From Bacteroidia bacterium (GTDB lineage Bacteria > Bacteroidota > Bacteroidia > Cytophagales > Flammeovirgaceae), in NCBI GenBank assembly GCA_030425505.1, contig JAUIAB010000002.1, forward strand, positions 1 through 64,000: a stretch of DNA of 64,000 bases, in the 5' to 3' direction. A model generated the notes under the pieces. It saw nothing but the letters and a program-made list of their open reading frames with translations. It was not told where the DNA came from and did not search any database. A program made the position numbers and the translations under genes. Below, one piece after another: positions 17,442-37,414 of the stretch; position 1 is the stretch's first letter, and each line of letters opens with the position of its first letter.

Positions 17442-18584
17442 TTACTTTAGATTGATCGCTTTCGTGATTGCTTTTTTCCCAAACTCAACTTTTATTCTAT
17501 CCATAGCTTTGTAAGCATCAATGGATTCCTCTCCTTCATCAAATAACCTTTTCTGGATGCCATCACTGGTTAAGTTTCCAAACCGAACACCGATTAATCG
17601 CAAAGGTTGAGGCTCATTGTAAAAACTATTGAATATGGAAGAAACTTCTTTCATCAACTTTTCATCATTAGCTGTAGCATCTATTTGCTTTTGTTGGGTA
17701 TAGGTTTTAAAATTAGAATGCCTGATTTTGATAGCAACATTCTTTGTAAGAATATTTTTAGATCTAAGTTGATACGCAAGTTCTTCTACCATCATCGCCA
17801 AAAATCGTTTGAGCACAGTTTTATCTGCAATATCTTTTGGAAAAGTTCTTTCCGTCGAAATTGATTTTCTTTCTCTGTGTATGCCTACCTCAGAGCTATC
17901 GATACCTTGTGCTTTTTTCCAAAGAGAAACACCATGTTTTCCCAACATAGACTCTAGGGTTTTGGGAGGCATATTCTGAATATCCTTCACATAGTTTATG
18001 CCTACAGACCTTAAAAAAGCCTGCATCTTTTTCCCAACCATCGGGAGTTCCTCAATAGATAGTTGTGCTAAAAACGCCTTTTCTTCTCCAGGGTAAACCC
18101 GTAAATAGTTATTCGGCTTAGCTTTGTTAGCAGCTATTTTGGAAACAACTCTGCTAGTTGATAACCCAAACGAAATAGGCAACCCTGTTTCATTAACTAT
18201 TTTCTCTCTGAGCGTAATCGTCCAGTCAAAAACGTCATAGTATTTTTCCATTCCAGTTAAGTCTAGGTAAAATTCGTCTATGGATGTTTTTTCATAAACA
18301 GGAGCATTTTCTTTTATTATTTGAGTAACTTCTTTGGACAGTTTGCTATATAACCCTCTCGTTCCAGAAATATATATTCCATGAGGGCATAGCTTTTTCG
18401 CTTGGTAAATAGGCATTGCAGATCGTACACCTAGTTTACGAGCTTCATAACTGCATGAAGATACAACACCCCTTTCTGAGTATCCTCCAACAATTACAGG
18501 TTTTCCAATAAGACTTTTATCTATAGTTCTCTCACAGGAAACAAAAAAAGAATCTAAGTCCATATGTACTATGGACTTAGGCAT
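17442..18584 (-). CDS. dinB: DNA polymerase IV (Y family)
   Basis: Error-prone translesion polymerase of 380 residues. Catalytic carboxylates are Asp9 in VHMDLDSFF and Asp103/Glu104 in TSIDEFYLDLTG. The palm and fingers are followed by helix-hairpin-helix segments (LPMVGKKMQAFLRSVG) and the little-finger domain. The C-terminus lacks an obvious canonical beta-clamp pentapeptide of the QLxLF type. Transcribed alone. It is bracketed by two copies of ATTTGCACATTARCA (17392 and 18827). Confidence 0.94.
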   Translation of the reverse strand: MPKSIVHMDLDSFFVSCERTIDKSLIGKPVIVGGYSERGVVSSCSYEARKLGVRSAMPIYQAKKLCPHGIYISGTRGLYSKLSKEVTQIIKENAPVYEKTSIDEFYLDLTGMEKYYDVFDWTITLREKIVNETGLPISFGLSTSRVVSKIAANKAKPNNYLRVYPGEEKAFLAQLSIEELPMVGKKMQAFLRSVGINYVKDIQNMPPKTLESMLGKHGVSLWKKAQGIDSSEVGIHRERKSISTERTFPKDIADKTVLKRFLAMMVEELAYQLRSKNILTKNVAIKIRHSNFKTYTQQKQIDATANDEKLMKEVSSIFNSFYNEPQPLRLIGVRFGNLTSDGIQKRLFDEGEESIDAYKAMDRIKVEFGKKAITKAINLK

Positions 18585-36483: not shown

Positions 36484-37113
36484 TCACTTTATAATATTTA
36501 CAGTTCCAAAAACTTTCTTACTCTCATTGACAATGGTAAAGCTGTAGGCTCCACTGAGAAGTGGATGTCCATTTTTGCTATAACCATCCCACTGGTAGTT
36601 ATCACTTATTTTAGACTCAAATACACTCTGCCCATTTCTGTCAAATATTTGCAAATCCCCATTTGTTAAAGGGATTTGAGATAAATCCCAAAACTCACCT
36701 ATAGAAGGATTAAAGAATACATCTTCCAACTCACAGACATTATTTTCTTTAACAATGACTTCTTTGAAGTCATATTTACACCCTTGCTGATTCATTACTT
36801 TTAAAGAATAAGCTCCAGGGGAAAGGTCATTATACAATTTTTTGTCGCTGAAGTTTTTCCCTCCATCAATAGAAAAGTAATAATCAATACTGCTATTAAA
36901 CTCTAAGCTTCCAGTTGGTCTAATGAAGCAACTATGCTCAATACTTATATTTAGATCTGGCTTGAAGCCAAAGCAGTCAACTTCTACTTTAGGGATAATA
37001 CGCTGTATAGGTATTTTATCTTTTGTGCTAATTTCAGTATCAAGCCTTGCTTTTTTATCTCCTCTTCTCATTGACGGGTGGAATATAAGAAATCTGAAAG
37101 CCAATTCCACCAA
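36484..37113 (-). pseudogene. 5'-truncated protein with T9SS type B (CHU_C) sorting domain
   Basis: Reading frame of 209 codons without signal peptide, opening at a TTG directly after a stop. The C-terminus has the gliding-motility/CHU_C sorting layout: VFFNPSIGEFWDLSQI, then LQIFDRNGQSVFE, YQWDGYSKNGHPLLSGAYSF and a final KVFGTVNIIK. The preceding 100 residues resemble a cadherin/PKD-like repeat (YYFSIDGGKNFSDKK; SPGAYSLKVMNQQGC). A T9SS cargo needs a signal peptide, so the 5' part has been lost. Its truncated start faces the truncated start of a similar plus-strand fragment at 37090-37414. Confidence 0.6.
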
Positions 37114-37414
37114 CTATTTTTCAGTACATTACCCTAATGGATGTGTAAAAGAGTGGCCTTACGCTATAGAAATTCAAGAGTTAGTATGTGAAGATGCAGC
37201 TTTTTCACCAGATGGAAATGGACAATATGATCGGTATCCTTTGCCGTATGATGGGCTTGCTAAGATATATAACCGTTTTGGAATATTACAAAAGGAAATA
37301 AGCCTTCCTTCTAGCTGGGATGGCACAGATAGAAATGGAAATTCCGTCCCCACAGGCGATTATATCATTATTTGCAGCCAAGGAGAAAAAATTAATGTCT
37401 CTGTTATACGATAA
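37090..37414 (+). pseudogene. Second 5'-truncated CHU_C sorting-domain fragment
   Basis: Plus-strand frame. The recognisable coding part starts around 37090-37110 and reads VHYPNGCVKEWPYAIEIQ, then AAFSPDGNGQYDRYPL, AKIYNRFGILQKEI, SSWDGTDRNGNSVPTGDY and VSVIR: the full CHU_C/T9SS type B consensus (spaced Fx-PDGNG, IYNRFG, WDG...G...PTGDY). The frame stays open back to 36923, but that part is antisense to the neighbouring fragment and is probably not coding. No signal peptide or start of its own. It ends 6 bases from the convergent GNAT gene. Confidence 0.6.

Follow-up and report, generated by a model that had tools for sequence, protein, structure and literature searches.

A truncated IS256-type insertion-sequence end at the junction of two head-to-head type IX secretion cargo gene fragments in a member of the Flammeovirgaceae

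Introduction

How did the C-terminal ends of two cargo genes of the type IX secretion system (T9SS) come to lie head to head, in open frames that overlap? The question is raised by positions 36484-37414 of a 64,000-nucleotide stretch of DNA from a member of the Flammeovirgaceae, which was analysed as a whole and is referred to here as the window. A literature search found no publication joining type IX secretion, insertion sequences, pseudogenes and C-terminal domains.

Results

The list of open reading frames confirmed a frame of 209 aa on the minus strand (36484-37113 (-)) and a frame on the plus strand that ends at 37414. Native gene sequence reaches up to approximately 37059 on the minus side and resumes from 37134 on the plus side, and both open frames read through the 74 bp between them (37060-37133), which correspond to the end of an insertion sequence (IS). 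The minus frame extends only into this IS end; the plus frame crosses it and continues on the strand opposite the minus fragment. An earlier note on this DNA correctly took both frames to be real, but the junction that it placed at 37090-37113 has to be redrawn, since the IS end lies inside both frames, and its account misses what is central here: exactly at the junction sits the remnant of an IS256-type right end. A stop-free frame like that of the minus fragment arose in none of 5000 mononucleotide shuffles, and one like that of the plus fragment in 7 of 5000, indicating that both real frames exceed the length seen in shuffled sequence.

The minus fragment (36484-37059 (-), approximately 190 codons) is assigned to the C-terminus of a T9SS cargo gene on the basis of the open reading frame list, a Pfam CHU_C match and its homology to the plus fragment. 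Its CHU_C sorting domain is preceded by a part that resembles repeat-type cargo, for which Pfam gives no match and which we presume to be SprB-like. The plus fragment (37134-37414 (+)) begins at a '(P)NGC' motif, continues for 92 codons to a stop, and is assigned to the C-terminus of another T9SS cargo gene, a paralogue of the first, by a CHU_C match below the cut-off and by its alignment with the minus fragment (28% identity, 99 columns). Inspection by eye detected neither a start and upstream gene body nor a recognisable signal peptide for either fragment, bearing out the claim that both frames lack a start and signal peptide. The further claim that neither fragment could be exported would be consistent with this lack of a signal peptide.

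With Pfam CHU_C the minus C-terminus reaches 34.8 bits, above the cut-off of 27, and with NCBIfam TIGR04131 26 bits, below the cut-off of 35. The plus C-terminus falls below both cut-offs (21.3 bits with CHU_C and 22.6 bits with TIGR04131), and the description of both C-termini as complete CHU_C/T9SS type B domains is generous for the plus fragment. Both share the C-terminal sorting-domain homology of T9SS type B cargo proteins (CHU_C PF13585/TIGR04131), from which they differ in the absence of signal peptide and gene body and, for the plus fragment, in scoring under the curated cut-offs. As judged from their alignment, the homology between the two fragments is not a matter of chance. The organism's own genome contains 22 CHU_C-like loci, eight of them above the cut-off, and among the open reading frames of at least 100 aa at these loci each of the two fragments matches the other best, suggesting that they stem from genes that were probably local duplicates. 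When the minus fragment was searched in 18 genomes of the family, four matched, including its own, and the remaining matches were weak and C-terminal. An inversion within one repetitive gene, offered by the earlier note as an alternative to deletion, was set aside as unlikely, the two C-termini being distinct at this level of identity.

The nature of the junction became apparent from the first 20-26 residues of the fragments, which gave weak matches in the 41 contigs of the own genome, to contig C11 for both fragments and to contig C5. The C11 matches fell on opposite strands of a single stretch, which argues for a DNA repeat rather than protein homology. A DNA search of the same genome aligned 37060-37133 with C11:41-114, a right end at the contig edge, at 87% identity, and shorter parts of it with C5:3476-3527 (92%), C25:17901-17931 (94%) and C24:209-254 (80%). 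The terminal 23-mer, with up to three mismatches, occurs once in the window and in none of 100 shuffles.

Homology to the IS ends abruptly at 37060, whereas C11 and related elements carry on inward. The C11 right end matches further inward (CTCCACCAG...CCTCTTC), as do an element of Emticicia and those of G246, a further genome in this order. In the window copy the pattern is present only from 37060 onwards, and this copy is thus truncated at that point. DNA matches to C11, C5 and G246, together with the aligned right ends of intact or partial elements, delimit a 74-bp right-end remnant (37060-37133 (+)) with its outer end at 37133. Within it, the terminal inverted repeat (37105-37133 (+)) is defined by its match to both ends of the 1289-bp Emticicia element, reaching 28/29 bases (96.6%) with the right end and about 80% with the inverted left end.

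Across the order Cytophagales, 5 of 291 genomes, the own genome included, match the repeat at E <= 0.001. In G246, the terminal 26 bases recur exactly (26/26) at three contig edges, adjoining the 3' end of a frame that resembles the Emticicia transposase. The G246 contigs concerned (C9, C8 and C4; stretches L094, L051 and L053) all begin with the same IS right end and differ in their flanks, as expected of a multi-copy element. The Emticicia oligotrophica plasmid NC_018742.1 carries an intact element (L055:2741-4029) whose right end gives the match; it has terminal inverted repeats and is flanked on both sides by the 7-bp repeat GATTAAA.

The 317-aa transposase frame of this element passes the NCBIfam IS256_Zn_var model (NF048019; 172.6 bits, cut-off 150) and stays under the cut-off of the IS1249 model (NF033544; 179.1 bits, cut-off 300), while its annotated 287-aa part matches Pfam Transposase_mut (36.2 bits, cut-off 21). 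The annotated protein begins at an internal TTG, and its frame continues upstream, where it encodes the zinc-ribbon N-terminus. The closest ATG seen on the upstream side is out of frame, ahead of eight consecutive A, which may reflect a frameshift or a wrongly annotated start.

Sequence comparison thus identifies 37060-37133 as the right end of an IS256-type element of the zinc-ribbon variant. The window copy shares the terminal repeat and right-end sequence of the zinc-binding IS256 variant (NF048019, with the related IS1249, NF033544), whose intact Emticicia relative encodes a transposase of the zinc-ribbon and Mutator type, is bounded by terminal inverted repeats and has a short repeat on its flanks. 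The window copy differs in retaining only 74 bp of the right end, with transposase gene, left end and left flank absent, and is classed as a remnant rather than an element.

Other readings of the repeat were also considered. In an Rfam scan (evalue mode) of the five repeat-bearing loci, a structured RNA at the junction was rejected, with only sub-threshold matches at the repeat; the sole match over the gathering score in these loci was RNase P, on L010. A miniature element (MITE) was rejected as well, no second terminal repeat being found in the 64-kb window even with nine substitutions allowed. A meaningful hairpin in the repeat was likewise dismissed, with folding no stronger than that of shuffled sequence (z -0.77).

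This last result bears on a more elaborate proposal, in which the fragments would be silent C-terminal cassettes, exchanged by recombination at the repeat with a T9SS gene that is expressed. In its favour, a short repeat containing an 8-bp inverted repeat separates two alternative C-termini placed head to head, but besides the unremarkable hairpin, the copies on C11 and C5 do not sit beside CHU_C-like genes in the stretches read, and the IS end already accounts for the repeat. We consider silent cassettes highly improbable. The C11 copy instead adjoins a GldJ gene (GldJ_short, 558.9 bits, cut-off 382.9), which indicates that the organism carries gliding/T9SS-linked machinery, and the C5 copy adjoins a gene recognised by eye as a transaldolase.

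Further decayed copies of the element are present in the own genome. Contig C24 begins inside a left end and includes the N-terminus of the transposase, with 22 of 32 residues identical to the Emticicia protein. No full or longer transposase of this type was found assembled in the own genome; the matches of one search lay below the cut-off, and 13 of 14 control genomes also reacted to it. The copies on C5 (3476-3527, L029) and C25 (approximately 17901-17931, L096) are solo right-end scraps, apparently intergenic, with no left end in the stretches read, an indication that the element is eroding throughout this small genome. Contig C11 (L028) starts inside a right end and C24 (L093) inside a left end of the same element type, and these two contig starts may flank one unassembled copy. 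The genome measures 2.95 Mb, while the 17 other family members compared range from 5.4 to 9.5 Mb, except for one of 2.8 Mb.

An IS end that is repeated in the genome, with contigs C11 and C24 beginning inside or beside such an end, could also have misled the assembly, falsely joining through the shared sequence two fragments that are not neighbours in the real chromosome. However, when four further assembled copies were compared with that in the window, none shared an exact run of more than 29 bp with it (a maximum reached by C11). The two copies that match best are 8-13% divergent where they align, and the truncation point at 37060 adjoins unique sequence. A false join would require that the assembly used very short k-mers or that an identical copy was left unassembled, and with so short an exact match we regard mis-assembly as unlikely.

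The neighbours of the locus were also looked for in 17 relatives from the family, of which 7 have the GNAT gene and 16 have rluD. At the seven GNAT loci, and at the 16 rluD loci covered with flanks of about 1.5 kb or less, tblastn detected neither the other neighbour nor T9SS homologues; upstream open reading frames were inspected at 7 of the 16 rluD loci. Neither an intact gene pair nor an empty site was found among the relatives examined. The comparison that the earlier note had proposed, a search of relatives for a large divergent gene pair, hence yielded no GNAT or rluD stretch that keeps the locus.

Discussion

Taken together, these results make it likely that a pair of T9SS cargo genes has decayed here, scarred by insertion of an IS and a subsequent deletion or rearrangement. 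On this history, an IS256-type element would have inserted into the plus-strand gene directly upstream of the 'NGC' codons, thereby bringing its right terminal repeat up against the 3' part that survives, at 37133/37134. In a later deletion or rearrangement, the DNA would have broken inside the IS, approximately 74 bp short of its right end, and inside the minus-strand gene. With this step the remaining IS sequence would have been lost together with the 5' parts of the two genes, and the C-terminal remnants joined head to head. We infer the order of these events, a divergent starting arrangement and a lack of function. Against this history count the failure to find an intact pair or an empty site in the relatives examined, or a full transposase in the assembled genome. 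In addition, neither fragment has lost its open frame, which would fit a recent event or some constraint on the fragments.

The loss of 5' parts from two cargo genes, as envisaged in the earlier note, is upheld in outline. The simple deletion between divergent genes by which it explained that loss is possible, but no relative examined keeps the locus, leaving tandem genes followed by an inversion equally open. A deletion between two genes, or an inversion, might also have been unrelated to the IS, whose end would then be there by chance. The position of the breakpoint speaks for such an event: it lies inside the IS, away from the element boundary at which a classical IS-mediated adjacent deletion would break. 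The IS end, however, exactly occupies the gap between the native fragments and stops precisely where the plus fragment begins, and we consider a coincidence of this kind improbable. That the fragments form a living reservoir of sorting domains, refilling other cargo genes by gene conversion or IS-mediated exchange, is scarcely credible.

IS-associated pseudogenes and deletion scars are well known in bacterial genomes, and the locus resembles them in carrying a truncated IS remnant at the join of two truncated genes. What sets it apart is that the two truncated genes are paralogues in a head-to-head arrangement. Ordinary gene decay through a mobile element and a deletion is the simplest history for the arrangement.

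An odd-looking arrangement would thus be explained by a routine process, in which an IS breaks a gene and a later deletion leaves a scar. The case has little value beyond one lesson, namely that short repeats at the junctions of gene fragments should be tested as transposon ends. For the organism itself, the reading of the junction as an IS scar fits a small genome that holds several scattered, decayed ends of the same element.
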